Below are positions 561 to 46,170 of a stretch of 46,642 bases of DNA, in pieces. The position numbers were made by a program, and so were the translations under genes. Under the pieces are notes generated by a model that did no database searches, had not been told where the DNA came from, and saw only the letters and a program-made list of their open reading frames with translations. The stretch lies in NCBI GenBank assembly GCA_017473345.1, contig JAFULL010000129.1:1-46642 (forward strand). The letters are read 5' to 3'. The stretch is from Clostridia bacterium (lineage in GTDB: Bacteria > Bacillota > Clostridia > Christensenellales > Aristaeellaceae). Each line of letters starts with the position of its first letter. Position 1 is the first letter of the stretch.

Positions 561-2178
561 ATGAAGAAACTGGTATCCTGGCACTGATCATGATGCTGTC
601 TTTGACCTCTGCTTTCGCCACCGCTACTGAAGCAATGGGCGGACTGGAAGCAAACTGGTGGGTCGACCTGGAGATCCCCAAGAGCGAACTGTACTACAAT
701 GAACTGACCATCACCGCTATGGGCAACCATTACAATCAGTATTCCACTGACTTTAATGGCGGCTACTATTTCCCCACCATTGAAAAGATGACCGGCGTTC
801 ACTTCGATATCGACTGGCGTTCCGATTACAATTCCACCGTGGTTGCCACGGCGCTGGCTCAGAGCGTGGATAACCTGCCTCACCTGATTCAGGCTTCCGG
901 CGACTACTCTATCGCCGCCTAATCAGTGAAGGCGCGATCGTTGAGCTGACTCCCTATCTTGAGCTGATGCCCAACGTTGTGGAAGCGGTCGGCGAAGACC
1001 GTATGGCCATCTGGGCAGAAGCCGACGGCGGCATCTGGACCCTGCCTGACCTGGTCAACGTTCCCGGCGCTCAGTCTACCGCTGTTCGCAAGGACTGGCT
1101 GGACCAGCTGGGCATGGAAGTGCCTGACACCTGGGAAGAGTGGAAGGCTTACTGGTACGGCGTTCGTGACAACGACATGAACGGCAACGGCGACCCCAAC
1201 GATGAAATTCCGATTTCTCTGGAAATGGGCGCGACCGGTGAAAGAAGCCTGCATCAGTTGTTGAATGCTTTCGGCATTGCTGCTTCCAACGATGCGCAGT
1301 TCTGCATCATGCCGGGCGGCACCTACGGCTTCGTCTATGACCATCCCAACTACAAGGCTTTCCTCCAGGAAGTTCGTGTTCTGTATGCCGACGGCATTCT
1401 GGACCAGGAGTTCGCAACCCGTAAGGCCACCGATATCCTCAACCTCATGGGCGGCAACCTGGTCGGCACCGTGTTTGCCTATGCTGAGCAGTGCGCTGTG
1501 CAGTCCTAAACCGCGATCGCCAATGGCGACGTGGATGCGCTGTACCTGTGTGTGGCCCCCATTGTTGGCCCATTCGGTGACAGCATGCTGCAGATGCGCG
1601 AAGGTCTGACCAAGAAGTGGTGCATCACCGCGAAGGCGGAGCAGGACGGTCTGGTAGAAGAGCTGTGCAAGTTCTGGAACTGGCAGTACAGCCCCGAAGG
1701 CGTGAGCCTGTACAACTACGGCATCGAGGGCTATACCTTCGACGTGGTGGACGGCAAGAGCGTTCTGCGTCCCGAGGTTGTAGCCAGCGGCTTCAACGTC
1801 TACCATACGATGGACCTTGAGTTTGCTCCCTTCGGCGGCAACTGGCTGACCGACGCCTTCATGCAGTGCGTGTTCTCCGGCATGACCGTGGAAGATCTCA
1901 TCGTACCGCGCCGTTCCTTCTACGACGGTCTGCGCGATGACGGCGTGAACATTGGCAAGTATTATCAGATGCCTGCTGTGCAGGGCACCGAAGCTTACAA
2001 CGAGTATGTAGGCGAGCTGATCCGCGGCGGCAACGGCATTTGCACCTATCGTGACCAGTGTGTGGCCGGTCAGATCACGATCGACGAGTTCTTTGCCAAG
2101 TATGAAGGGCTTAAGGGCCGCGGCCTGCAGGATGTCATCGATCAGGGCACTGCTGCTTACGCTGAGATCACCAAGTAA
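561..2178 (+). pseudogene. Decayed tandem copy of the solute-binding protein gene
   Basis: AAGGAGG at 546-552 precedes ATG 561, and the product begins with a signal peptide (MKKLVS then LALIMMLSLTSAFA). Three lesions break it. One base is missing near 576-580, where the frame moves from that of 561 to that of 578. One base is missing near 918-921, where the frame moves again (GDYSIAA must continue into LISEGAIVELTP). An in-frame TAA lies at 1507-1509 between CAVQS and TAIANGD. Repaired, it would give about 540 residues, the usual family length, and its last 130 residues closely match the fragment at 1-399. No lipobox cysteine is seen. Both one-base losses fall where a CCC would be expected to read CC, so sequencing or assembly error is possible; the stop codon is harder to explain that way. 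If real, only the upstream copy supplies a binding protein. Confidence 0.85.
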
Positions 2179-18228: not shown

Positions 18229-18258
18229 TTGCCTTGGATGGCGCAGTCGTGCTACAAT
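18229..18258 (+). promoter_or_regulatory. Sigma-A promoter of the queH-birA operon
   Basis: TTGCCT (18229-18234) and TACAAT (18253-18258) are 18 bases apart, about 21 bases before TTG 18280. Confidence 0.6.
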
Positions 18259-18279
18259 ACAAAAAGAGGTGATTTTTCT

Positions 18280-19641
18280 TTGAAACTTCTGCTGCATATC
18301 TGCTGCGCGCCGTGCGCCATTATGTGCGTTGAAACGCTGCGAGCCGAAGGCATTGAACCTGTTGGCTTCTGGGACAATGCAAACATTCATCCCTACACGG
18401 AATACCGCATCCGCCGCGATACGCTGGTGGATTATGCCAGATCCATCGGGCTGGATCTCATTCTTCATGGCGAATACGGCCTCAGACCCTTTGTGCGCGC
18501 CGTGGCGGAGGACATCGACCACCGCTGCATCCAGTGTTATCGCATCCGCTTTTCGGCTGCGGCCAAATATGCAGCTGAAAACGGCTTTACGCATTTTTCA
18601 TCCACGCTGTTTGTAAGCCCGTATCAGAATCACGATCTCATGCTGCAGGCTGCGCAGGCCGCAGCGGAGGAATACGGCGTGCAGTTCCTGCACCGCGATT
18701 TCCGCCCTTATTTTCAGCAGGGGCAGGAACGCGCACGCGAATTGGGATTGTATATGCAAAAGTACTGCGGCTGCATTTTCAGCGAGGAAGACCGCTACAA
18801 AAAGCGCAAGCGCCCCAAGGATATCCTGACACCGGAGAAGATTGCAGTCGAGCTTGACACCCGCTGGGCCGGACGCGGCGAGATCAGCTATGCGCAGGAA
18901 ATGACGTCCACCAACATCCGCGCGAAAGAAATGGGGCGTGAAGGCGCGCCGCACGGCAGTCTGGCCGTTTGTGAAAACCAGACGGCGGGCCGCGGCAGGA
19001 TGCAGCGCACATGGGACACGCCTGCCGGACAGGCGCTTACGCAGAGCATGGTGCTCAGGCCTCGGCTGCCTGCAGAACAGGCGCAGCTGATCACGCTGGC
19101 GGCGGCAGTCGCATCCGCACAGGCCATTCGTGATGTGTGCCCGCGGCTGAAGCCGGGCATCAAATGGCCCAATGACGTGGTGATCAATGGAAAAAAATGC
19201 GTTGGCATACTTTGCGAAATGGCCATGGCGGGCAGCGAACTGGCCTACGTGGTGCCTGGCGTAGGCATCAATGTCAATCAGCTTTCCTTTGATGGTGAAC
19301 TGGAGGACAAGGCGACTTCACTTTTGATGGAAATGCGCAGGCTGGAGCCCAAGACCCAGCCCATCAGCCGACGCAAGGTACTGTGCGCCTACCTCAAGCG
19401 CATGGAAGAAGCCGTGGATGCGCTTGAAAAAGAAGGACTGCTGGGCATTTTGCCGGAGTATATCGGCCGCAGCGTCACTTTGGGCAGCAAGGTGCGTGTC
19501 GTCGGGCCTGAGTATGAATTTACAGGCACAGCCAAAGCCATCGACGAAACCGGCGCGCTCATCGTGACCGATGAAGAAGGCGCCGATCGCCGCGTGCTTT
19601 GCGGCGACGTAAGCGTGCGCGGCATGATGGGCTATGTGTGA
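18280..19641 (+). CDS. Fusion of epoxyqueuosine reductase QueH and biotin protein ligase
   Basis: AGAGGTGAT (18265-18273) precedes TTG 18280; the 453-residue product is uninterrupted. Residues 1-180 are QueH: LLLHICCAPCA with the paired cysteines, NIHPYTEYRIRRDTL, a CxxC in DHRCIQCYRIRF and a late YCGCIFS, the cysteines expected for iron-sulfur and redox roles in the last step of queuosine tRNA modification. From about residue 181 the chain becomes a BirA ligase: DILTPEKIAVEL linker, STNIRAKEMG, QTAGRGRMQRTWDTPAG, IKWPNDVVINGKKCVGIL and VPGVGINVNQ. BirA proteins in Clostridia often have an N-terminal winged helix; here QueH sits in exactly that place, so no DNA binding is expected. It may be a natural fusion, or a deletion or assembly join of two genes. 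Confidence 0.85.
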   Translation: MKLLLHICCAPCAIMCVETLRAEGIEPVGFWDNANIHPYTEYRIRRDTLVDYARSIGLDLILHGEYGLRPFVRAVAEDIDHRCIQCYRIRFSAAAKYAAENGFTHFSSTLFVSPYQNHDLMLQAAQAAAEEYGVQFLHRDFRPYFQQGQERARELGLYMQKYCGCIFSEEDRYKKRKRPKDILTPEKIAVELDTRWAGRGEISYAQEMTSTNIRAKEMGREGAPHGSLAVCENQTAGRGRMQRTWDTPAGQALTQSMVLRPRLPAEQAQLITLAAAVASAQAIRDVCPRLKPGIKWPNDVVINGKKCVGILCEMAMAGSELAYVVPGVGINVNQLSFDGELEDKATSLLMEMRRLEPKTQPISRRKVLCAYLKRMEEAVDALEKEGLLGILPEYIGRSVTLGSKVRVVGPEYEFTGTAKAIDETGALIVTDEEGADRRVLCGDVSVRGMMGYV

Positions 19642-20972: not shown

Positions 20973-22826
20973 ATGCTCAAAACCATTGCGCCTGCTGAAA
21001 TGAAGCGTGTGGAAAACCAGGTGATGGAGTGCACGCCCGTTACCGGCGAGCAGCTGATGCAGCGCGCAGCCAGACATGTGGCGGATGCGGTGGACCGTTT
21101 GATTCGTAGTCAAAAGGCCTATGTATTGTGCATCTGCGGCACGGGCAACAATGGCGGCGACGGTATGGCGGCCATGCGGATGCTTGCGCAGGCTGATCCT
21201 TCCTTTCAAGGAGAGTGCTGGGTGCTGCCCGGAAAGCTATCGGCGGATGCTGTGCGCGAACTGGACAGGCTGCGCCGTACCAATGTGGTTATCCGGATGA
21301 TTGAAGAGAAACTGCCGCCTGTACCTGAAAAAGTGGGCTGCGTGATCGACGCGCTGTTTGGCACGGGCCTGTGCCGCAATCTGGAAGGAATGGCATTGGC
21401 ATGCGTTCGACTGATCAAGCGGCTGGATGCGCCTGTGGTCGCGGTGGATATTCCCTCCGGCCTCAATGGGCTTGACGGCAGAGTGATGGGGGAGGCCGTC
21501 AGGGCAGATCACACCATTACCTTCCATCGTCCCAAGCCGGGACTGTATCTGGGTCAGGGGCTGGATTATGCTGGTGAGATCACGATTGCAGATATTGGTA
21601 TCCTGCCGGAAATGGACGATGCGGATGGTTTTCTTGTGCTGCAGAAGCAGGACCTTTCGGCGTTCCTGCCCAAACGCGCCCGTGTAAGCCACAAGGGAAA
21701 CTATGGCCGCGTGCTTTTGCGGGCTGGTTCACGCGGAATGGCAGGAGCAGCCGCCATTGCTGCCACGGCTGCATTGCGCACGGGCGCGGGGCTTGTAACA
21801 GTTGCCTGCCCGGACGAAGTGATGGATATCGTACAGGTGATCTGTCCCTGTGCAACCTGCATCCCCCTGCCGGACGATGTGGAGCAGGCGTGGCAGATTC
21901 TGCAGGATGCACTTTCCCGCTGCGATGCAGTGGGCGCCGGATGCGGACTGGGCAAAAGTGCGTGGGCAGCGGAACTGCTGAAACGGCTGATCAAAGAAGA
22001 CAGACCCATGGTGCTGGATGCGGATGCCCTTAATCTGTTGGCGCAGGAAAAAATCACTGCGCCGGGTGCGTTTATCACACCCCATCCTGCGGAGGCAGCA
22101 AGGCTTCTGGGATGCGATACGGCATCCATCGTGGCCGACGTGCCTGCGGCGGCGCTTCGATTGGGCGAAATGTATCGTACGGTGCTCAAGGGTGCGTGCA
22201 GCGTGCTGTGCGCAGATGGCAAAATGGCGATCAATCCCTTCGGTACGCCGGCAATGGCCAAGGGCGGAAGCGGCGATGCGCTTACCGGCGTGATGGCTGC
22301 GTTGCTTGCAGGCCGCGCGGTCGGAACATATGCCATGGACGATCTTTCCCTGATGCAGACTGCGTGTGCACTGCATGGTCTGGCTGGTGAAGCAGCACAG
22401 CAGCAGTATGGTCAGCGCGGTGTGCTGGCGACGGATCTTTGCGAACGCCTTGGGATGGATTTCACCGAAAAACCGAACATTTCAAAGGGGACGAATGATG
22501 AGCAACCGACTTTTGAACAGCGTAGCGTGACGGTGATCGTGGAACATAAAAAGGGAATGCGCGATGAAAAAGATCGTTCGCTGGTCTACCGCCATAACTG
22601 CGGGTATGTGCAGGAAGTGCTGGAGCATCAAAACGAATGGCAGGATGCATGCATTTTAGGCGTTGACGGTGTTGTGGAATGGTTTGAAGGCGACGTTGCC
22701 GCTATTTGTTCCGACGGCGAACGCGAACTGTGGATCGTTGCACCGCAGCAGCTGCGCCTGACGCCGGACGAGATCCGCCGTGAAACAGCCTGGCTGGGCC
22801 AATGGACAAGCATTCGCTGCCTGTAA
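20973..22826 (+). CDS. nnrD: Bifunctional NAD(P)H-hydrate epimerase/dehydratase, read through into a pyrophosphatase-like tail
   Basis: GGAGGGAGACC precedes ATG 20973. Residues 1-210 are the NnrE (YjeF_N) epimerase domain, with GTGNNGGDGMAAMRML and VDIPSGLNGLDG. Residues about 225-505 are the NnrD dehydratase kinase-like domain, with VLDADALNLLA and GGSGDALTGVMAALLAG. Together they repair hydrated NADH and NADPH. The usual protein ends near residue 505, but here the frame continues to 617. The extra tail, from about residue 520, resembles small clostridial inorganic pyrophosphatase-like proteins. Restoring one base near 22520 would give nnrD its own TAG stop and open an overlapping second gene from ATG 22498, so the join is probably a frameshift rather than a designed fusion. 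Confidence 0.88.
   Translation: MLKTIAPAEMKRVENQVMECTPVTGEQLMQRAARHVADAVDRLIRSQKAYVLCICGTGNNGGDGMAAMRMLAQADPSFQGECWVLPGKLSADAVRELDRLRRTNVVIRMIEEKLPPVPEKVGCVIDALFGTGLCRNLEGMALACVRLIKRLDAPVVAVDIPSGLNGLDGRVMGEAVRADHTITFHRPKPGLYLGQGLDYAGEITIADIGILPEMDDADGFLVLQKQDLSAFLPKRARVSHKGNYGRVLLRAGSRGMAGAAAIAATAALRTGAGLVTVACPDEVMDIVQVICPCATCIPLPDDVEQAWQILQDALSRCDAVGAGCGLGKSAWAAELLKRLIKEDRPMVLDADALNLLAQEKITAPGAFITPHPAEAARLLGCDTASIVADVPAAALRLGEMYRTVLKGACSVLCADGKMAINPFGTPAMAKGGSGDALTGVMAALLAGRAVGTYAMDDLSLMQTACALHGLAGEAAQQQYGQRGVLATDLCERLGMDFTEKPNISKGTNDEQPTFEQRSVTVIVEHKKGMRDEKDRSLVYRHNCGYVQEVLEHQNEWQDACILGVDGVVEWFEGDVAAICSDGERELWIVAPQQLRLTPDEIRRETAWLGQWTSIRCL
22498..22826 (+). pseudogene. Inorganic pyrophosphatase-like gene, frameshifted near its start
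   Basis: AAAGGGG then ATG 22495/22498 marks a likely original start (MSNRLLNS). That frame hits TGA after ten codons. One inserted base near 22520 would join it to the frame encoding VTVIVEHKKG, NCGYVQEVLEHQNEWQDACI, LGVDGVVEWFEGDVAAI and ELWIVAPQQLRLTPDEIRRE. This pattern follows the short clostridial pyrophosphatase-like family (NYGYV..., GEEQDAYILGVD, F.G.V.AIIHR, VVAPEG). The conserved NYG is NCG here and several acidic positions look worn, so activity is doubtful even if the frame is intact. Confidence 0.55.
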
Positions 22827-22900
22827 GCATGGCAGAAATTGCAAGCAAATATTAAAATCGTACATTTGGTTAAAAAATAACTGGAATGTTCGGAAATCCG

Positions 22901-22929
22901 CTGACAAATCCTTCTGTTTTCGATAAAAT
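22901..22929 (+). promoter_or_regulatory. Sigma-A promoter before the pur leader
   Basis: CTGACA (22901-22906) and TAAAAT (22924-22929) are 17 bases apart. Transcription would start near 22936, leaving a leader of almost 200 bases before the purE start. Confidence 0.7.
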
Positions 22930-22934
22930 AAGCC

Positions 22935-23053
22935 TATCGTTCGGAAGGGAGGCGCAATGCTGGCATGTGTTCGAAGGAATTTCGCTGTTCCACCTGCCTG
23001 CAGCATAAGGCGCTTTCTAGCTGTTCCGGCGAGAATACCACCCTTGTATACAG
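22935..23053 (+). ncRNA. Structured leader or small RNA of unknown class before the pur remnant
   Basis: The transcript can fold into a long irregular hairpin. GCGC (22953-22956) pairs with a later GCGC after GCATAAG, ATGCT with AGCAT (22999-23006 region), GGCA with TGCC, and apical GGAA with TTCC. Outer pairings are possible between CGGAA and TTCCG and between AAGGG (22945-22950) and CCCTT (23041-23045). A rod with a central asymmetric bubble and its own terminator is reminiscent of 6S RNA, but it is shorter than usual and I see no diagnostic sequence. It does not match the purine, PRPP, glycine or ZTP riboswitch consensus that I know. A 38-codon cysteine-containing frame (22965-23081) overlaps it and is the alternative reading. 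Confidence 0.4.
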
Positions 23054-23096
23054 GATGCAGCTTCGCGGCATGCCCGCGTAAAAGCTGCATCTTTTT
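23054..23096 (+). terminator. Terminator or attenuator before purE
   Basis: A perfect ten-bp outer stem (GATGCAGCTT, 23054-23063, with 23082-23091) encloses a second GC-rich hairpin and is followed by TTTTT. It lies between the leader promoter and the purE ribosome site (AGGAGG near 23119), so it either ends a small RNA or acts as an attenuator. Confidence 0.85.
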
Positions 23097-23131
23097 ATGC
23101 AGGTCAATTGGCTCATCAGGAGGCAAAATAC

Positions 23132-24479
23132 ATGAAAAAAGTTGCAGTGATCAAGCGATCTTCCCGTGCTGGAAGGCTGCTTCAAGACGCTGAAAAAGCT
23201 GGATATTCCCTATGAGGCGCATGTATATTCCGCTCACCGCACGCCCTTTAAGGCAGCTGAGTTCGTCCGCAGCGCGCACGAAAACGGCTTTGGCGGCTGC
23301 TTCGGACTGCCCATTGCCGGCATGGAAGAACCCGTGCTGGTTTCCGGCACCGATGGCTGCGGCACCAAGGTCAAGATGGCCATTCTGATGGACAAGCATG
23401 ACACTATCGGCGTTGACGCCGTGGCCATGTGCGTTAACGACATCATCTGCATGGGCGCAAAGCCTCTGTTCTTCCTGGACTATATTGCCTGCGGCAAAAA
23501 CATTCCCGAGAAGATCGCTTCCGTCGTTGCCGGTGTGGCCGAGGGCTGCGTGTAGTCCGGCGCGGCACTGATCGGCGGCGAGACGGTTGCGCTGGACGTC
23601 ATGCAGGAAGTGTACGAGAGCAAGCTGACCAAGGTGTTCCCGTACTATGGCGAGGGCGAAAAGGTCGCAAAGACCACCACCTCCGTTAAGGAATGGGCCA
23701 AACTTGCGGTGCTTTCCAACAGGCCTGTGGCATTTATCCCGGCCTTCCCCGGCACCAACTGCGAAATCGACACCGCCCGCGCACTCACCCGTGCAGGCGC
23801 TGAACCCCGCGTGCTGCTCATCAATAACCTGACGTCTGCTGCCATCGGCGAAAGCCTGAAGGAAGCTGTGCGCATGATCGGCAAAAGCCAGATGATCGTG
23901 CTGCCCGGCGGCTTCAGCGGCGGCGACGAGCCTGACGGCAGCGCCAAGTTTATCACTGCGTTCTTCCGCAACCCCATGATGAAGGATGCTGTGCACGAGC
24001 TGCTCAAAAACCGCGACGGCCTGATGCTGGGCATCTGCAACGGTTTCCAGGCGCTGATCAAGCTGGGTCTGGTACCCTACGGCGAGATCATCGACGTGGA
24101 TGACACCTGCCCGACCCTGACCTTCAACACCATCGGCCGTCACCAGAGCATGCTGGTGCGCACCCGCATCGCAAGCAACAAGAGCCCCTGGCTGCAGCTG
24201 GTGGAGGCTGGCGACATCCACAACATTGCCATTTCGCACGGCGAGGGCCGCTTTGTTGCCAGCGACGCCGTGGTAGAGGAACTGGTGCGCAACGGTCAGG
24301 TTGCCACGCAGTATGTGGATCTTGCCGGTGATCCTACTATGGATCTGCGTTTCAACCCCAATGGCAGCGTGCTGGGGAAGATGGGCCACAGCGAACGCGC
24401 CGGTATCGACCTGTACAAGAACGTGCAGGGTAACCGCTTCCAGCCGATCTTCGAAGGCGGCGTAAAATACTTCAAGTAA
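23132..24479 (+). pseudogene. Collapsed purine operon: joined pieces of purE, purM and purL
   Basis: AGGAGG precedes ATG 23132. The first codons (MKKVAVI) are PurE, then about 11 bases are lost at 23153, which shifts the frame. PurE resumes ([31 protein letters not shown]) and ends at ENGFG near 23294. There it becomes PurM ([46 protein letters not shown]), with TAG at 23553-23555 where PurM has glutamine (EGCVQ-GAALIGGET). At about 23585 it becomes the C-terminal glutaminase part of a long PurL (FIPAFPGTNCEIDTARAL, LPGGFSGGDEPDGSAKF, LMLGICNGFQALIKLGLVP, SHGEGRF). Even here about a dozen residues are missing between FNPNGS and VLGKMGHSER. No intact PurE, PurM or PurL can result. Real decay and mis-assembly at short repeats are both possible. 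Confidence 0.85.
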
Positions 24480-24518: not shown

Positions 24519-24671
24519 ATGTGTTTTTTATATGAAAATATTACTTTTGGAATCAAAAATGGCTAATAGCATTACAATTGTTTAAAATATGGGATTATTT
24601 CTTTTCAAGACAATATCTTGGTGATACAATAAGTACAAAATACAACCCATGGTATTTTGGAGGAGAAACAA

Positions 24672-25418
24672 ATGACGATTCGGGTGGTTGTGGCTGAGGC
24701 GAATGACGAGCAACGCAAAGCAATGGTGGATGCACTTTTACAGGAAGAGAACTGCGTGCTGGCAGGTACAACAGGCAGCGGTCTGGCTGCGCTGGATCTT
24801 GTACGCCGGATGAGACCGGACGTGCTTGTGTGCAGCATGCAGCTGCCGGGAATGGACGGCTTTGACCTGTTGCAGGAAATTGCACAGTCTCCTCTTGAAA
24901 GCAGGCCGCTGGTCATCATCACGTCGATCATCTTCCGGGAAGATCTGGTGCGTCGCGCTTTTGATATGGGTGCAGCCGATTATATGGTAAAGCCGTTTGC
25001 AGCGCAGCTGCTGGTACGGCGCATCCGCAGGGTGTTTCTGTATGAGGCCTATGCGGCACATACGCCGAGCGAAAACCGTATGGAGCGCAAACTGGCCGGA
25101 ATTTTGCTGCAGCTGGGCATTCCAGCTCATCTGAGCGGCTATCGCTTTTTGCAGGAAGCCGTGCGCGCCACGCTCAGACAGCCGCAGCTGCTGGATCACC
25201 TCATGCACGACCTGTACCCGCGCGTTGCACAATCCTGCCATTCAACGACGTGCGGCGTGGAAAGGTCTATTCGTGAGGCAATCACGCTGGCATGGGAACG
25301 CGGCAGACCTGAGGAGACCAGCAAGGTGCTTGGGCGCAACGTCAATCCCTATTATGAAAAACCGACCAGCGGCGAGTTGATCGCGCTGGTCGCGGAAAAG
25401 ATGCGGGCCTATATGTGA
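24672..25418 (+). CDS. Spo0A-family regulator with a degenerate receiver domain
   Basis: TTTTGGAGGAG precedes ATG 24672. Residues 1-120 form a response-regulator receiver, and residues about 135-248 a Spo0A C-terminal DNA-binding domain (LGIPAHLSGYRFLQEAV, CGVERSIREAITLAWERGR, KPTSGELIALVAEKM). The recognition helix region is well kept. The receiver is not. Where Spo0A has the phospho-acceptor aspartate (DVLVLDIIMP) this protein reads DVLVCSMQLP, with Ser55. The acidic pair near residue 10 is Glu-Ala instead of Asp-Asp. The late lysine (MVKPF) remains. It therefore probably cannot be phosphorylated by the normal relay. It may act constitutively, bind another signal, or be a paralogue of a true Spo0A elsewhere. 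The usual neighbour spoIVB is absent. Confidence 0.88.
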   Translation: MTIRVVVAEANDEQRKAMVDALLQEENCVLAGTTGSGLAALDLVRRMRPDVLVCSMQLPGMDGFDLLQEIAQSPLESRPLVIITSIIFREDLVRRAFDMGAADYMVKPFAAQLLVRRIRRVFLYEAYAAHTPSENRMERKLAGILLQLGIPAHLSGYRFLQEAVRATLRQPQLLDHLMHDLYPRVAQSCHSTTCGVERSIREAITLAWERGRPEETSKVLGRNVNPYYEKPTSGELIALVAEKMRAYM

Positions 25419-25420
25419 TA

Positions 25421-26053
25421 TCAGCTTTGCGGGTTCAGATACTGCAGGATCAGAAGCGTACCTTCCTGCACAGAAATACAGGCTTCGCCGCCGGTATGGC
25501 AGTTGCTGACGCCAAGCGGATAGTCACAGCTGAGGCTTGCGTCGGATAACGGATATTTCAGCCCCGTCAGCGTAACGCCGCTGGCCTGCTGGCTCATGCA
25601 GAATACGCTTACGGTCGTACCGGCGCTGCGCCCGGGCAGCACAAGGGAACCGTTCGTCAATGCATAAGCGTCATAATCCTGTGCAGTCATGTGGATCTGT
25701 GCGCCCATGCGGCTCATGCGGCACATGCTCTGCCAGTTGGCCAGCAGGTGATCTGCCCGGCCGCCGCTGCAGCCGTAAAGGGCAAACTGTCTGTATCCCA
25801 GCTGCCAGCCATGCGCCAGCGCGATGCCGGTATCGGTATCGTCTTTTTCGACGGGAAACTGCACCAGCGGCAAAGAGGCAGGCAGATCAAATTGGCCCAG
25901 CGAGTCCAGATCGCCCATCAGCAGATCAGGGGTGATGCCCATTGCCAACAGCGGACGCAGGCCGCCGTCAGCAGCGATGACGCAGTCCTGCGACGAGGGC
26001 GTAAAATCGCGCGGGGTAAAGTCACCCGCGCCTACGATGAAGCAGATTCCCAT
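25421..26053 (-). CDS. thiN: Thiamine pyrophosphokinase
   Basis: Minus-strand GGAGG six bases before ATG 26053 sets the start. The 210-residue product has the family motifs DCVIAADGGLRPLLAMGITP, DLLMGDLDSLG, FPVEKDDTDTGIALAHGW and YGCSGGRADHLLAN. It makes thiamine diphosphate from thiamine and ATP in the cytoplasm. Together with the TPP-controlled ThiT at 32209 it supports thiamine salvage. It converges on the Spo0A-like gene with only two bases between stops. Confidence 0.95.
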   Translation of the reverse strand: MGICFIVGAGDFTPRDFTPSSQDCVIAADGGLRPLLAMGITPDLLMGDLDSLGQFDLPASLPLVQFPVEKDDTDTGIALAHGWQLGYRQFALYGCSGGRADHLLANWQSMCRMSRMGAQIHMTAQDYDAYALTNGSLVLPGRSAGTTVSVFCMSQQASGVTLTGLKYPLSDASLSCDYPLGVSNCHTGGEACISVQEGTLLILQYLNPQS

Positions 26054-26079
26054 GAGAGGCCTCCATACGGTTAAAAAAC

Positions 26080-26112
26080 TTGACTGATCACAGTAAATGG
26101 ATAGTATACTGT
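26080..26112 (+). promoter_or_regulatory. Promoter and inverted repeat before the flavin reductase gene
   Basis: TTGACT (26080-26085) lies upstream of TAGTAT (26102-26107, 16-base spacer) or TATACT (26105-26110, 19 bases). ACAGTA (26090-26095) and TACTGT (26107-26112) form an inverted repeat across the spacer and -10, a likely repressor site. Confidence 0.5.
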
Positions 26113-26163
26113 ATTGTAGCATGATTGTTTTTGTTGTGCAACGCTATACAGGGAGGAATAAAA

Positions 26164-38963: not shown

Positions 38964-41900
38964 TTAGTTTCCTGCATTTTCAGCAGTGGGATCATAGTTG
39001 GAAATGTAGGTGATTTTGGCCGCACCGTCATTTGCGCGGCCTTCGATGGGCTCGTCGCTGTCGGGAGAAGGCATGGACTTATCGCCGGCGATTGAAGCGG
39101 CGTTTTTCAGCACGGGATTCAGGTAAGCAGAGCCGCCGCCTGCGCCGTAGTCGCCGCCGCCTTCTTTACCGGCATACCAGCCTGCGCCGCCACCGCCGCC
39201 GTCGCCGATGCGGTCAGCTCCGTTGCCGCGCAGCGGAGAACCATCAGAAGGATTGAGCGTGTTGCCGCCAATGCCTACGCGTACACCGTTGGAACGGATA
39301 GCGCTTCCGGCTACCAGTCCGCCGCCAAAAGCACCGGTCTTGGGATCCTGATTGCCGGCGCCGCCGCCACCGCCTGCAACAATCAGGGTGTTGGTGACGT
39401 CAGCATCCCATTCTTCTCCATGGATGACAGGGTTGGGAATGCGGGAAATGTGAGTCATGCCGCCACCGCCGCCGGAACTGCCGGTGGTACCGGCGGTGCC
39501 GCCGCCGTTGCATCCGCCCGGAGCGCTTGTCTTTGAGGATTCGCCCTTGCAGCCGACCATCACATAGAGCTTTTCACCCTGGCTGAGATAGAGATAACCT
39601 TCGGAATAGCCGCCTCTGCCGCCGAGGGACTGCGCATCCTGACCACCCTGTGAGCCCCATGCCTGCAGCAGATACCAACCCTCACTGGGAGCGATGAAGG
39701 TCTGAACTTCGACAGGATGTGCAAGCGCACTGTTGATTAGGGGACAGGTGTACAGCTTTTCGAGCTTCCACTGGGCATAGACGGTTTTGTTTTCGGTCAG
39801 TTTCCATGCATCGTTCGGGTCAAAGGCGTTGCCATTTGCATCCTGCCAGCCGATGAAGGTCATGGCAGTCGGCGTGGCAGTGCCGTCGACATAGGTCAGA
39901 TATTCCGGCTGCAGGTAGGTTCCGCTGGAAAGTTGATTGCCTTGGCTGTCGGTGTAATAACGCACGACGTTGCGGCTGTATTTGCCGCCGAATGTGCCGC
40001 CGTTTGCAACATAGGTAACGGAATAACCCAGCCCAGCAGGCTGTACTGTACCCGTCCACACGGTCAATTCAGGATTGACGCGTTTGGAAGTGTCCGTATC
40101 GACCCACTTTTTATAAATGACGAGTTCGTTATCGTTGGCGGGCATGTTGTCCATCACATAGGACAGCAGCGTGTTGTCGTAAGTCATGCCGGTGATGGTC
40201 ACAGAACCATCCTCGTCAATGGTCACGTAGCGGTCGTTGGGATCCAGCTGATAGTTTACGCCGTTGAGGGAAGGCGCTTTGGTCTCTTTGAGCAGATAGG
40301 TACCGCGTTCCAGACCGGTGAAGCTGACCTTGCCCGTTTCGTCGGAAACGGCAGTCATGTCATAATATGCGCCGGAATCAGCATTGCCGGTCAGCCTGAA
40401 CTGCGCGCCCTGCAGGAACTGATTGCTTGCGCCGTCCCTCTTGTAGAAGGCAAAATCCAGATAACGGCGCCTGTTCCACACGCTGTAGGCTTTGCCGTCC
40501 AGATCGACCATATCGTCCTCGGCGATCGTGGCGGCACCATAGGTATTCACACTTACGCTGAGCGTTTTTCCAAGCGGCAGATAGGGGGATTCGCTGGTCC
40601 AGCTGCTGGTGAGTTCCTCAAGCGTGTAGTTTGTGCCGTATTCGACATTGGGGAAGCGCACAGCGCCGCTGGCATCCGAGGTGGCGTACAGTTCCACGGT
40701 GTTGCCGTAGTTGGATATGCCGCTTAGACGGAAGCTGACGCCCTCGATGGCAGTTTCAGCATAGTCGCCTGCTGCACGTGCTCTTTTGTAGAACGTCAGA
40801 TCGCCGTGGATGCGGGGATCGTTTTTCATGACGAAGGAAACGCCGGGTTCATAGGGTACACCGTCAATCGTCAGATTTCCGGCATGGTCGATGACAACAC
40901 TGTGCTGCGTGGTGTTGAGCAGCCAGTCGGGCGTGGTGGCATATTCAAGCAGCGTATAGCTGCCTTTTTCCAGATTACGGAAGATGGTGTTGCCGCGCTT
41001 GTCCGTTTCCTGCATCATGTCTACAGCGGTACCGTAGTCAGATGTTCCGTACAGGCGGAAGGTGACGCCGGGAATGTTGACGTCGGCGTCAACAGAACTC
41101 TGTTTGTTGACAGGTACATCTGCTACCACCACATAGCGCACGATGGTGGGGCCGATGCTGCGGCACTCGTTTGACGTTGCGCCGGTTTCGTTGATGCAGC
41201 GCTTGCCCAGGAATTCAACGCCGTTGTAGGTTTCGGGATAAACGTCTTTGGTGGCGGAGGAATCAGGCAGTTTGTCGGGCGCTTTCATGAACAGGTTCAC
41301 GTAAACGGATTCGCCCTCGGCAAGCCGAAAGTCATTGCCGTTTACATCCTTGCGCATGTCGACGGCAACAGCATAGGCTGCCTCGGGAATGGAGGCATTG
41401 TCCTGCGGCTGCGTCCAGACAGAGGAATCAAATACATAGTTTTCGACGCCTTCTGCAGGCAGAGCGACTGCCTGGGTGGTGTAGTATACCTTGGGTGCGA
41501 TGCCCATGATGACAAGGTCACTGGTATCCACCTCGGTAAGACGACCGTACCATTCACTGACGTCGCCGTCATAGGTGTCCTGCTCCAGCGCGTCAAAGAA
41601 GATCATATTGGTGTAGCTTACGCCGGGGTCGGAGGCAAAACGCAGGCGGTAGATATAGTCGCCGCCGGCCAGCACGGTGGTTTCGTTGCTGTACTGTTCG
41701 TCCTCGACGGCCTTGACGCGCTTGCTCAGACCCGTGGAGGCCGAGGTGATGGCATTGATATCATACCGCGCCTCGGCGTAGAGGAAACGGTTGCCTTCAG
41801 AGGTAGGATCCAGGCCGGAGATCAGCGGCCTGCGGTTGGCGGGCAGACTGCCGCCGTCGTCGGGATAGCCCTTGGCAATATCCTCGTTGCCGGTCTGATA

Positions 41901-44318
41901 GGCAACAATGTTGTCCACGGCGTTGCCGATATCCTTGATAGTATCCCATGCATGGAACGTATCATAGGAAAGGGCATAGCTGGGCGCGGAATCGTGGATT
42001 TTTACCACCAGCAGGGTGCAGTGATCACGGTAGTTGGCATGCTGCGTAACCGTGTAGTAATTGGGAGAAAGATATTCGGAGCCTACGCGTACAGCGATGG
42101 ACTTTTCATCCAGCGTTGCGCCCAGTGGCAGCAGGTCGTAGAACGTACCGGTATACTGCTCCAGACTTTCGACGGTGCTGTCCTCGCCGGAGCGGATGGT
42201 TTCGATCTGCTGAATGTTCCATGATACAATGAAGCGGCGCTGAAGCACGTCGTTGCGTCCTGCTACGACGTTTTTGCTCAAAGAAGACTCTCTGATGGAA
42301 CTGCGTGCATAATCGTATTCTTCACGCCAGTCGCCGCAGCGGTACAGAGAGTATTCTTCGGTTGCGGGATCCTGACGGTACAGCAGGCCCTGCATCTGGT
42401 TGAGAATGGCGATCTGGTTTGCGCCCTTGATATAGTTGAGTACACGCGCAGAATTTTTCAACTCCAGCTTAGCCACGACGCCAAAGAGAAACTCTAAGTA
42501 CTCGTTTTCTGTTTCTACTTTATATGCCGTGGTGCCTTCAGGCAGGTAAACGGTATGGGTGGCAAGGTCGACCCAAACGCCCTCGGCCAGAGACTCAACC
42601 TTCGGTGTCACAGGATCCAGCGAAACCTTGGCGGCAAGCTCATATTCCTGATCTGATCCACTACGGGTATAGAATGAAAGCACGTCGCTTGCAGAGGTGG
42701 ATGTTTTGAAGGTGTAGAAGGCCTGAGAATCCTCATCAAAATAATCAGTATAGGGGAGCGCGTTATACTGAAGAGAAACAAACTGGAAATCTTCAGGAGT
42801 CAGTTCAAGCCCCTCTTCCAGCTTCAAAGCGCTGTCCACCTTAAACAGTTTGATGCCGTCTGTGCCGTCGGGGGCATTATCGACCATCACGTATCTGGAA
42901 CGGAGACGCTTGAACACCTGCTCAACCTGCTCGGCAGTCAGGTACTTTTGATCGGGAAGGTTTTGCCACGCTTCCATATCTTTGTACAGGTTGTTTGCTG
43001 TGCTGAAGGACCACACGGCATAGTCAAAACCGCCAAAGGTATCCAGCTTGCCAGTTTGAAAATCCTGCAGGTCATACCGGGTATATTCGCCTGCTTCAAA
43101 ACCGAGCGAGTTAAACAGAGCGGGGCCGCCGCGGGTCAGCTGCCACAAATCGCCATCGCGATAGGCGCCGTCGCCGCGCTTCCAGGCGTTGTAATTGCCT
43201 TCCGGTTCCCAGAAATCAGGTTTGTGGTAGGTGTATTCGACGGTATCATATACGGTCTGGGGCAGATCAATGCCATCAAAGGGTTCCAGTGCAACCTCAA
43301 TACGGTTGGTGGCCGTCCACAGTTCAAGATTGCGCACAGATGCTGCGGGGATCATGGTGATCACGCTGTCCATACGGTTTTGCGTAAGTGTCTGATTGGA
43401 AATGGTCACAGAGGCATCGGTATTGGCTTCCACAAACTTACCGCCGGAAAAGAGGTAACCGCAGATGGTCATATCACAGACGTGATTGCCGTCCTTGTCG
43501 ACGATGGTGCCAAGAGTGTCGGTCAGAGTGAGATGATAGGGCTGCGTGGTCGCACCGTCGATGGCGGTGGTAACAGGCCAGGCGAGGTACCAGCAGTCTG
43601 CGGCAGACGCAGGCGGGGTACCCCACTCATCCATCCAGCGCTTGGACATGACCGGATAACCTTTGTCGGTGCTGATGACGCGTGCGGTGGAATCCATTAC
43701 GACAGGCGCAGCATGAAGTTGCTTTTTGTCGGCAAACTCTTCGCCTTCGTAATAGGCCGTATATTCCATGGTGGTGAGATAGGGTTCAACAGACTGGCCG
43801 GGCGTGTAATCAACATAGTTGAAAGTGGTATTTTTCGTGAAATAGGCAATCTGCACATAGCCGGTATAATCAGCGTCTGAAAGCTTTTTAAAGTTGTAGA
43901 TGACAATGTTGTCCCCTGCTTCTCTGAAAGCCAGGAACACTTCCGGGTCAATGTTCTGTGGTTCGGTCTCGGCCTCATACTGTGTGGGGATCGACATTTC
44001 ATAGCCATCCCCGCGTTCGCCGTTACGATTGGTCCAAAGTGATTTGGGGATGGTAAACGTAAGGTCGCCCGGCTTGACGACAGAACCATTGGGCAGATGG
44101 ATGCTGTAAGTGAGCTGATAGGTAAAACGATGGCCTGCTGCACTGCTGACAGGCGTCCAGATGGCGAGTGTTTGATCCTCGTTCAGCTGTGCGCCGCCGG
44201 CAAAAAGCGCGTTGAAATCAGCCGTGATGGTCTCTGCATAGCATGCGCTCATCATGGCAAAGATCAGAATGATGGATGCTGCCGCTGCTTTCAGGCAAAA
44301 GTTCATGATCTTCGTCAC
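38964..44318 (-). CDS. Giant secreted adhesin-like protein with SpaA, InlB-like and glycine-rich domains
   Basis: GTG 44318 has minus-strand GGAGG eight bases upstream and opens a signal peptide (LKAAAASIILIFAMMSACYA); the open stretch to 44480 has no such site. The 1784-residue product has a long N-terminal region of unknown fold (to about residue 1070), three SpaA/Cna-B-like domains (about 1075-1165, 1190-1295, 1300-1395; GVTFRLYGTSDYG, GVSFRLSGISNYG, GAQFRLTGNADSG), an InlB-type repeat (about 1430-1515, ending AQW), and a glycine-rich lectin-like C-terminal domain (about 1540-1770; LIVAGGGGGAGN). There is no LPXTG-type anchor, so it is probably held by the partner at 36348 or by non-covalent binding. 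Confidence 0.85.
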   Translation of the reverse strand: MTKIMNFCLKAAAASIILIFAMMSACYAETITADFNALFAGGAQLNEDQTLAIWTPVSSAAGHRFTYQLTYSIHLPNGSVVKPGDLTFTIPKSLWTNRNGERGDGYEMSIPTQYEAETEPQNIDPEVFLAFREAGDNIVIYNFKKLSDADYTGYVQIAYFTKNTTFNYVDYTPGQSVEPYLTTMEYTAYYEGEEFADKKQLHAAPVVMDSTARVISTDKGYPVMSKRWMDEWGTPPASAADCWYLAWPVTTAIDGATTQPYHLTLTDTLGTIVDKDGNHVCDMTICGYLFSGGKFVEANTDASVTISNQTLTQNRMDSVITMIPAASVRNLELWTATNRIEVALEPFDGIDLPQTVYDTVEYTYHKPDFWEPEGNYNAWKRGDGAYRDGDLWQLTRGGPALFNSLGFEAGEYTRYDLQDFQTGKLDTFGGFDYAVWSFSTANNLYKDMEAWQNLPDQKYLTAEQVEQVFKRLRSRYVMVDNAPDGTDGIKLFKVDSALKLEEGLELTPEDFQFVSLQYNALPYTDYFDEDSQAFYTFKTSTSASDVLSFYTRSGSDQEYELAAKVSLDPVTPKVESLAEGVWVDLATHTVYLPEGTTAYKVETENEYLEFLFGVVAKLELKNSARVLNYIKGANQIAILNQMQGLLYRQDPATEEYSLYRCGDWREEYDYARSSIRESSLSKNVVAGRNDVLQRRFIVSWNIQQIETIRSGEDSTVESLEQYTGTFYDLLPLGATLDEKSIAVRVGSEYLSPNYYTVTQHANYRDHCTLLVVKIHDSAPSYALSYDTFHAWDTIKDIGNAVDNIVAYQTGNEDIAKGYPDDGGSLPANRRPLISGLDPTSEGNRFLYAEARYDINAITSASTGLSKRVKAVEDEQYSNETTVLAGGDYIYRLRFASDPGVSYTNMIFFDALEQDTYDGDVSEWYGRLTEVDTSDLVIMGIAPKVYYTTQAVALPAEGVENYVFDSSVWTQPQDNASIPEAAYAVAVDMRKDVNGNDFRLAEGESVYVNLFMKAPDKLPDSSATKDVYPETYNGVEFLGKRCINETGATSNECRSIGPTIVRYVVVADVPVNKQSSVDADVNIPGVTFRLYGTSDYGTAVDMMQETDKRGNTIFRNLEKGSYTLLEYATTPDWLLNTTQHSVVIDHAGNLTIDGVPYEPGVSFVMKNDPRIHGDLTFYKRARAAGDYAETAIEGVSFRLSGISNYGNTVELYATSDASGAVRFPNVEYGTNYTLEELTSSWTSESPYLPLGKTLSVSVNTYGAATIAEDDMVDLDGKAYSVWNRRRYLDFAFYKRDGASNQFLQGAQFRLTGNADSGAYYDMTAVSDETGKVSFTGLERGTYLLKETKAPSLNGVNYQLDPNDRYVTIDEDGSVTITGMTYDNTLLSYVMDNMPANDNELVIYKKWVDTDTSKRVNPELTVWTGTVQPAGLGYSVTYVANGGTFGGKYSRNVVRYYTDSQGNQLSSGTYLQPEYLTYVDGTATPTAMTFIGWQDANGNAFDPNDAWKLTENKTVYAQWKLEKLYTCPLINSALAHPVEVQTFIAPSEGWYLLQAWGSQGGQDAQSLGGRGGYSEGYLYLSQGEKLYVMVGCKGESSKTSAPGGCNGGGTAGTTGSSGGGGGMTHISRIPNPVIHGEEWDADVTNTLIVAGGGGGAGNQDPKTGAFGGGLVAGSAIRSNGVRVGIGGNTLNPSDGSPLRGNGADRIGDGGGGGAGWYAGKEGGGDYGAGGGSAYLNPVLKNAASIAGDKSMPSPDSDEPIEGRANDGAAKITYISNYDPTAENAGN

Positions 44319-44370
44319 TACTGTATCCTCCGAAAAAAACAATAAATTAAAGAAATAAACCCAATTTAAA

Positions 44371-44399
44371 AAGTTAACATAATCAACATCTCGTGTCAA
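44371..44399 (-). promoter_or_regulatory. Promoter of the surface-protein operon
   Basis: On the minus strand perfect TTGACA (44399-44394) and a weak -10 TAACTT (44376-44371) are 17 bases apart, in an AT-rich stretch about 50 bases before GTG 44318. Confidence 0.65.
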
Positions 44400-44429
44400 T
44401 ATTTGGAAGGGCTTTACGACATACAAGAA

Positions 44430-44463
44430 CATAAAAAATGCACCGTTGATTAACGGTGCATTA
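44430..44463 (-). terminator. Terminator of the 44467-46170 gene
   Basis: On the minus strand AATGCACCGTT pairs with AACGGTGCATT around a short loop and is followed by TTTTTT. It isolates the membrane-protein gene from the surface operon. Confidence 0.9.
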
Positions 44464-44466
44464 AAA

Positions 44467-46170
44467 TCAGCGGAATGCAAAGAAGCGAAGATCGCCTTTT
44501 GTATCGATCAGTTCGGCAGTTACAGTCCGGTTAACGGATTCGCCGATGTACGCCAGCAGTTCAGTCGGCGGCTGATCTTTTTCTGTGACGAACAATAGTT
44601 TTTCATTCAGAAAATCTGCAGCGGTGAAGTGACGACCGTCAAAGCCAAGGTTATCAAGCTGCGCATACCAGCTGGGTGTGCGGCAGTTCCAGTCGCCCCA
44701 GATCATAATATTGGTTGGTATGCCGCCGGATACATCCGGAAGCAGGCGCGTATCACGCAGAAGATTGGGGGTGCGAAGGATCAGCTTATCAGGATGCGCA
44801 AGTGCATAAGCCTCCAAATCGGCTTCACGCGTGGCAGAAACCTGATCGGGCCTGTCTGACAACACGTCCAGTGTAGCGCCTGCATGAAAAACAGCACATA
44901 CAGCACACAAAACAGCCAATGTCATGGCGATGATTTTGCGCTTGACAGAAGCATGTACCAGTTTCTCAGAAGCAGAAACCGCAAGAGCACACAGCAGTAC
45001 GGCGGCCGGGAAAAGCGCACAGTCGGCAGCCCGGGAAAGGAAGCGGCCCTTGAAGGCCAGGTACATCAGCATCAGCAGAGCAAGGCAGATCGTTCCTGCT
45101 GCAGCAAGGGGAATCAGGAATTGACTGTGATTACGGATCGGAATCAGAATGACGATCGCAGCAAGCAGCAGCAAAAGAAAACCGCACAGGCAATAACGAG
45201 GGTTGTTTCTGAAGAACTGGACCAGCGTCTGCACTCCGGAAGACAAACGCTGAGCAAGAGAAATGCCGGATGAAAGAGCGCTGTCCAACTTTTCAAAGGC
45301 TTCAGCAGTGATGTTTTCATCCATGAAATACCATTGCTGTACCAACGCAAGTTCAGAGCGCGACCAACCTATATCGGCAAGCACACTGTCGTCCACCGAA
45401 AGAAGTTGATCTTCGGTATAATCCATGGGACCGGTGTTTGCGTCCTGGAAATGCATCAGCTCAGCCAGTTCAGGGTCGCGCAATTCCAGCGAACGAATTC
45501 CCATCAGCCCAGCGATCAGGATACAGCCGCAGCATCCAGCAATGAGAAGACGACGCAGCTGTGTTCCGCGCGGACGGCGCAAAAGAATGAAACCGGCCAG
45601 CGCGAGCATCCAGAACGGCAGGCAAGCCAAGCTGCTCTGGGCGCGAATCAAATAACTGCATATTAATAGAAGAAAGGAGCAAATAAGCGATGTGAAGCTC
45701 GAACTGTCCGACAGTGCAGCCGAGACAAGCAAGGCGGTTGCTGCGGCTCCCAGCATGGCGGCAGTCGTTGTGAAATTAATGCGCGAAAAAGCAAAGGAAG
45801 TAAAAACAGCGGTAAAGATGCCTGAAAGAAGAATTCCACTGAAAATGGAGATCTTTTTAGAAGCGATGGACAGCAGACTGCCACCGATAATAGCCAGAGA
45901 GAACCACAGACAGCCGATCTGGAAAAGCGAGAACCATGCAACGCCGGGAACGAGTAAAGTCAGCTGCTTCATTAATAAGGAAAGAAGCGTATGCTGATAC
46001 AACTGGAATCCGGCAGGAGATCCGCCTTCAAACCCCATGTAGGCTTTTACAATCAGAATGTCATCAGAATTCTCATAACGGAAATAGGTAATGCTGCCGA
46101 GAACCAAAATCAGTACAGTTGCCAGCACAAAACCATAAAACCAAGGCAGCAGTTTTGCAACGCGTTTCAT
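44467..46170 (-). CDS. Polytopic membrane protein, possibly a GT-C-type glycosyltransferase
   Basis: A minus-strand AAAGGACG precedes ATG 46170. The 567-residue product has about ten to twelve membrane helices and a C-terminal soluble part of roughly 130 residues. An acidic motif, YENSDDILI, follows the first helix; GT-C enzymes carry an Asp/Glu pair in that first outer loop and have this general layout. I recognise no specific family, so transfer of lipid-linked sugars to surface polymers or proteins is only a suggestion. It lies beside the surface-protein operon but has its own terminator. Confidence 0.7.
   Translation of the reverse strand: MKRVAKLLPWFYGFVLATVLILVLGSITYFRYENSDDILIVKAYMGFEGGSPAGFQLYQHTLLSLLMKQLTLLVPGVAWFSLFQIGCLWFSLAIIGGSLLSIASKKISIFSGILLSGIFTAVFTSFAFSRINFTTTAAMLGAAATALLVSAALSDSSSFTSLICSFLLLICSYLIRAQSSLACLPFWMLALAGFILLRRPRGTQLRRLLIAGCCGCILIAGLMGIRSLELRDPELAELMHFQDANTGPMDYTEDQLLSVDDSVLADIGWSRSELALVQQWYFMDENITAEAFEKLDSALSSGISLAQRLSSGVQTLVQFFRNNPRYCLCGFLLLLLAAIVILIPIRNHSQFLIPLAAAGTICLALLMLMYLAFKGRFLSRAADCALFPAAVLLCALAVSASEKLVHASVKRKIIAMTLAVLCAVCAVFHAGATLDVLSDRPDQVSATREADLEAYALAHPDKLILRTPNLLRDTRLLPDVSGGIPTNIMIWGDWNCRTPSWYAQLDNLGFDGRHFTAADFLNEKLLFVTEKDQPPTELLAYIGESVNRTVTAELIDTKGDLRFFAFR

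Follow-up and report, generated by a model that had tools for sequence, protein, structure and literature searches.

The purine biosynthesis (pur) locus at 23132-24479 of the window (the whole stretch of 46,642 nucleotides analysed here, i.e., contig C117 of the metagenome-assembled genome (MAG) G000) is probably the non-functional relic of a redundant pur operon that was eroded by deletions between short repeats. The genome bin comprises 2,408,459 bases in 132 contigs at a completeness of 65.1% and a contamination of 2.6%. The anatomy and synteny of the remnant, the repeats at its joins, the presence of a second copy in the bin and the clade to which each gene belongs were observed on assembled contigs of this MAG and assemblies of its relatives, which form the basis of the analysis throughout. 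In the proposed course of events, an ancestral operon of the order purE-(C)-F-M-N-purO-AICARFT-D-L was situated between nnr and the thiamine diphosphokinase gene and would have become redundant, most likely through a second operon (purE-C-F-M-N-purO..., on contig C52 of the same bin) supplying the same enzymes and presumably complete beyond the contig end. Two deletions at short direct repeats, probably RecA-independent and of the slippage type, would account for most of the approximately 10 kb that are gone, accompanied by an 11-bp loss, a 39-bp loss and a nonsense change; this order of events is the one we infer. The relic belongs to a known kind, ordinary gene decay, and is of interest for its clear anatomy and its mosaic history.

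Parts of purE, purM and purL follow each other in a single reading frame, which is interrupted only by the loss of 11 bases in purE and by a TAG in purM, and the NCBIfam profile coverage accordingly passes from positions 9-54 of PurE (TIGR01162) to 26-124 of PurM (TIGR00878) and on to 935-1239 of the PurL C-terminus (TIGR01857). The first part (purE', 23132-23295, + strand) is the N-terminal third of PurE as determined by profile and alignment; relative to purE of G008 and G013, it lost 11 bases at ~23151-23154, which removes the codons for MGSD from an MGSDSD stretch and shifts the frame. Junction 1 (23285-23295, + strand) is the 11-bp word CGGCTTTGGCG common to purE and purM, from which purM' (23285-23587, + strand) extends over about 100 codons of PurM and contains the single internal stop of the frame 23154-24479, a TAG at 23553-23555. 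Junction 2 (~23577-23587, + strand) joins purM to purL at GGCGGCGAG(ACGG). The remaining part (purL', 23580-24479, + strand) is the C-terminal glutaminase part of PurL, identified by TIGR01857, a GATase_5 match and alignment, and carries a 39-bp in-frame loss after ~24362, before VLGKMGHSER, by which 13 residues including IEGITSPDGR are gone. A separate 36-bp loss in purL beside junction 2 was considered and dropped: VALDVMQEV of the window matches VALDAMQEV of G015, and the purM/purL join hence needs no extra purL deletion.

The pieces pass the Pfam cut-offs as domain fragments (PurE with 40 bits at a cut-off of 30), and each falls below its NCBIfam family cut-off, with 34.8 bits vs 149.6 for PurE, 119.4 bits vs 236.35 for PurM, and 397.8 bits vs 1057.05 for PurL. 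Lesions that destroy function were found in all three parts (the MGSD loss, the truncations, the TAG and the 39-bp loss), and a full-length PurL with synthase and glutaminase parts was not found in the window. Since PurE is without MGSD, PurM without its C-terminal domain and PurL without its synthase part, no piece should work as the enzyme after which it is named. The first-pass annotation of this DNA had described the locus as a purE-purM-purL chimera of 1.35 kb, with PurE running into PurM at a shared word, PurM running into the PurL C-terminus, an approximately 11-base loss near 23153, a TAG in place of a PurM glutamine and an in-frame gap of about a dozen residues before VLGKMGHSER, and this description was confirmed by profile matches and alignments in all of these points.

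That annotation had also proposed the collapse of a whole pur operon, and synteny supports that this happened in place. Upstream of the remnant lies an open nnr gene (NAD(P)H-hydrate epimerase/dehydratase, 20973-22826, + strand, NCBIfam yjeF domains over the cut-off), and downstream the thiamine diphosphokinase gene thiN (25421-26122, − strand, TIGR01378 over the cut-off). The locus was compared in eight native-type relatives (G003, G004, G005, G007, G008, G012, G013, and G015), of which G008 and G013 have their pur operon spread across two contigs each. An intact pur operon preceded by nnr was found in six of the eight, at a distance of less than 0.5 kb in G003, G008 and G013 (305 bp in the window) and of 1.3-2.2 kb in G005, G007 and G015; the stretches fetched for G004 and G012 yielded no nnr. 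The thiamine diphosphokinase gene is located downstream of purL in G008 and G013 (2/8), whereas a search of the stretches fetched for the other six did not reveal it. Relatives thus hold an intact copy at the same site, and with both neighbours flanking the remnant, it is most simply the old operon in place. By query matches, the operons of G015, G007, G005, G003 and G004 are intact in the order purE-C-F-M-N-AICARFT-D-L (AICARFT and purD of G007 being confirmed by Pfam), unlike the broken locus in the window. From the start of purE to the end of purL, 11,355 bp (~11.4 kb) are covered in G015 vs 1,348 bp in the window, i.e., ~10 kb are gone.

The operon leader (22827-23131, + strand), which comprises the promoter region, was delimited by alignment with the sequence upstream of purE in G013, a word scan and folds. 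It contains a word that we take to be PurBox-like and a strong attenuator-like hairpin at ~23052-23095 (ATGCAGC...GCTGCAT, followed by a T-rich tail), which is alike in the folds of the window, G008 and G013. A leader riboswitch was rejected as no Rfam family exceeded the threshold (one chance-level match, E 0.71). Beside the relic, a Spo0A-like response regulator (24657-25418, + strand) scored 179.5 bits vs a family cut-off of 200 and had no match in the relatives' loci searched.

Further features were observed elsewhere in the window. A second broken gene at 590-2178 (+ strand), presumably encoding a transporter-type solute-binding protein, changes frame near 920, contains an in-frame TAA (1507-1509), and is preceded by the C-terminus of a similar gene, reaching up to 399. 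At 18229-19641 (+ strand), an ORF of 470 residues joins an N-terminal part without family match, which we take to be QueH-like, to a BirA biotin ligase (family match), and its halves match different frames in G013, as if they were separate genes. An ORF of 1838 residues at 38964-44480 (− strand) presumably encodes a surface protein.

Both large joins coincide with short repeats. The word CGGCTTTGGCG is present in both purE and purM of G008 and G013 as well as in C52 purM, and absent from C52 purE. At junction 2, GGCGGCGAG(ACGG) is whole in C52 purM, G015 purL has GGCGGCGAG, and purL of G008 and G013 have CGGCGAG. Junction 1 therefore has a repeat of 11 bp and junction 2 one of at least 7 bp (9 with G015 purL), lengths that rest on the relatives because G000 has lost its own native purE and purL. 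Among 300,000 random deletions drawn in the G015 operon (with draws shorter than 500 bp scored as misses), an exact repeat arose at a frequency of ~3e-5 for at least 11 bases and ~1e-3 for at least 7, so that both junctions carry repeats beyond chance. Hardly any repeat accompanies the 11-bp loss, and that at the 39-bp loss is short and imperfect. Repeated deletion between short repeats, as suggested in the first-pass annotation, hence holds for the two big joins, fails for the 11-bp loss and is weak for the 39-bp loss. The three larger joins all keep the frame, which simple arithmetic puts at ~1 in 27 by chance and which decay does not demand. The relatives had been recommended for a comparison of the junctions, and junction 1 was found in none of the 16 same-genus relatives; allowing up to three mismatches, G000 was alone among 100 genomes, a count in which strong divergence could hide others.

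A second set of pur genes is located on contig C52 of the same bin (locus L003), where purE, purC, purM and purN are open (Pfam), a PurF-like gene scores 167 bits against TIGR01134 (cut-off 350, i.e., below), and purN is followed by the start of a putative IMP cyclohydrolase gene (labelled purO), truncated where the contig stops. Oriented divergently to purE is a formate-tetrahydrofolate ligase gene (fhs). An intact operon elsewhere in the genome, for which a search had been advised, was thus encountered as an open purE-C-F-M-N series, but one that the end of the contig truncates. No other contig with the C52 end was found, and the start of contig C7, a candidate for a second purL from a 30-bp match, was discarded as its first 6 kb had no match to pur queries. 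AICARFT (AICAR transformylase) was not found in the G000 assembly, nor was any purL besides purL' or any full purL. The purD domain PF01071 had two weak matches (26.9 bits, just over the cut-off with its neighbours, and 24.6 bits) in frames of 1064 and 407 residues, which were considered to be ATP-grasp enzymes of another kind. AICARFT, purD and purL come after purO in relatives, and their absence here says little because C52 breaks where they would follow and the MAG is 65% complete.

Over 305 bp, purM' is 97.4% identical to C52 purM; the seven differing sites comprise four silent, two missense and one nonsense difference (CAG in C52, TAG in the window). Identity of purM' to other purM sequences was 90% for G013, 87% for G008, 80-85% for G001, G002, G006, G009, G011, G014 and G016, and 71-75% for the other six native-type genomes. 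Gene trees were calculated with FastTree and midpoint-rooted; they are small, and several branch orders are weakly supported. In these trees, purE' groups with the native-type purE of the old site and C52 purE with the other group, whereas purM' has C52 purM as its sister (at a support of 0.94 for DNA and 0.85 for protein), and the pair falls into a clade with G013 and G008 (1.00). C52 pairs with G008 for purF (1.00), purN (0.92) and purO (0.95), and G013 stays native-type for these genes. According to the trees, the native operon of G013 therefore contains a single C52-like gene (purM), and G008 has four (F-M-N-purO). Judged by sequence relationships, the relic in G000 would have been a mosaic before it decayed, with native-type purE and purL around a C52-like purM, as in G008 and G013. 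A tentative scenario, possible rather than probable, is that the ancestors of G000, G008 and G013 harboured two pur operons of different ancestry, between which parts were exchanged (purM in each of the three genomes, F-M-N-purO in G008), after which G008 and G013 might have kept the mosaic at the old site, and G000 the fhs-adjacent operon while its old one collapsed. The purO gene of G008 is split over two contigs (loci L030 and L029); both ends match C52 purO and are non-identical in their overlap. The C52 contig terminates close to this split, where the assembly graph might branch at the border of a recombination.

The likelihoods attached here to decay, auxotrophy and artefact belong to readings that overlap in part. 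It is quite unlikely that the remnant is an assembly or strain-mixture artefact, in which reads of an intact operon or of several strains were misjoined. A MAG of 132 contigs and 65% completeness, a partly similar operon in the same bin and a junction seen in one of 100 genomes would suit such misjoining, but two large joins, two small losses and one stop are found on one contig with both flanks syntenic, and the shared words of 7-11 bases are presumably too short for usual assembly k-mer joins. In addition, purE' is of another type than C52 purE and purM' differs from C52 purM at seven sites; on these grounds, a collapse of C52 reads onto the window was rejected, and the intact same-genome operon that was named in advance as a source of such a collapse did not turn out to be one. 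True purine auxotrophy, which the first-pass annotation had offered as the consequence of erosion in the cell, is unlikely as well. It would mean that de novo synthesis was lost, that purines are salvaged and that C52 is mis-binned or incomplete; mis-binning is conceivable given 132 contigs and 65% completeness, and neither AICARFT nor a full purL turned up in the assembly, with purD limited to the two weak matches. Absence does occur in the genus: over the cut-off, exactly one purE was found in 15 of 16 same-genus relatives and purL in 14 of 16 (at contig ends, that of G012 lies in two pieces and that of G013 is cut), G009 having a contig-end piece of purL only, and in G010 (95% complete), a candidate purine auxotroph, neither gene was found. 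Against auxotrophy stand the five open early-pathway genes on C52 (purE, purC, purF-like, purM, and purN), the position of the missing genes, which are those expected just past its end, and the fact that C52 purM is the nearest found to purM'. Furthermore, the middle of C52 fits the bin composition, with a tetranucleotide distance of 0.0062 to the G000 centroid, the range being 0.0049-0.0123 for 11 G000 stretches (the same from which the centroid was built) and 0.0114-0.0255 for 10 stretches of relatives, one of which (G013, 0.0114) falls inside the G000 range. The pur end of C52 (L003) lies at 0.0123, at the range edge and equal to another G000 stretch.

The possibility that TAG is read as glutamine in the host and the chimera is made as one protein is practically nil. 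The TAG faces CAG of C52 purM and is rare as a stop in G000, ending 8 of 303 coding-like frames and none of 32 hand-picked window genes (a mechanical ORF count, 26/261 TAG ends, was inflated by false ORFs, with a Pfam match in one of eight scanned). However, TAG is equally rare in relatives (0/58 ends in G008, 3/65 in G013, 2/56 in G005, and 0/98 in the other group), in line with 0-4.6% of coding-like ends in the same-genus stretches examined. Outside the window, it ends 7 of 268 coding-like frames in G000, none of which continues as coding-like sequence, so that the purM' TAG alone has coding sequence beyond it, and reading as glutamine was rejected. A scan of 25 G000 stretches, with only four tRNA genes among them, revealed no tRNA with anticodon CUA, and each enzyme part would be truncated anyway. 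In G000, TAG serves as a true, though infrequent, stop, and the TAG of purM' is a lesion. It is also very improbable that the remnant is still useful, by way of its kept promoter region and a 292-residue PurL glutaminase part open from the ATG at 23601 (23601-24479). Leader and hairpin are kept, and dN/dS of purL' (0.18-0.19 vs G008 and G013, 0.14-0.26 vs six relatives) is within the range of functional pairs (0.13-0.40 with the near-identical G005/G007 left aside; 0.13 between G008 and G013) over 304 codons, which include ~7 leading codons where purM' faces purL and divergence is slightly inflated. Such values do not by themselves show relaxed selection, but low dN/dS is expected anyway if the loss is recent, the synthase part to be fed is absent, and purL' is missing 13 residues that all six relatives in the comparison possess. 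Moreover, purL' differs at five otherwise invariant columns, compared to 0-1 in five of the six relatives and 22 in distant G004 (G005 and G007 can hardly score odd residues because they are near identical). Both dN/dS and the odd residues fit a recent loss.

Read as the decayed relic of a redundant operon, the locus presents a visible step of operon loss, with the old site, breakpoints with repeats and a possible replacement. It also carries two warnings, namely that auxotrophy does not necessarily follow from pur gene fragments in a genome bin, and that one pur operon in this genus can hold genes of different ancestry.

Among the titles and abstract openings covered by a literature search, nothing was recognised as this locus. 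Mosaic operons formed by gene displacement in situ were reportedly described by Omelchenko et al. in 2003, and a passage in PMC4481853 likewise mentions mosaic operons via in situ gene displacement. The C52-like genes inside the native-type operons of G008 and G013 resemble this class; unlike in those mosaic operons, the mosaic copy in G000 is dead and its mosaic state is visible only from the relic. For the decay itself, sections of PMC3637634 on the reductive evolution of Streptococcus agalactiae report indels of 1 to 10,095 nt in genes that become dispensable, many of them at repeats below the RecA threshold, and provide a precedent for RecA-independent erosion. As in the S. agalactiae pseudogenes described in these sections, deletions at short direct repeats would have affected dispensable genes in G000, but here one biosynthetic operon was reduced to a nearly in-frame chimera of 1.35 kb with a second operon in the bin.
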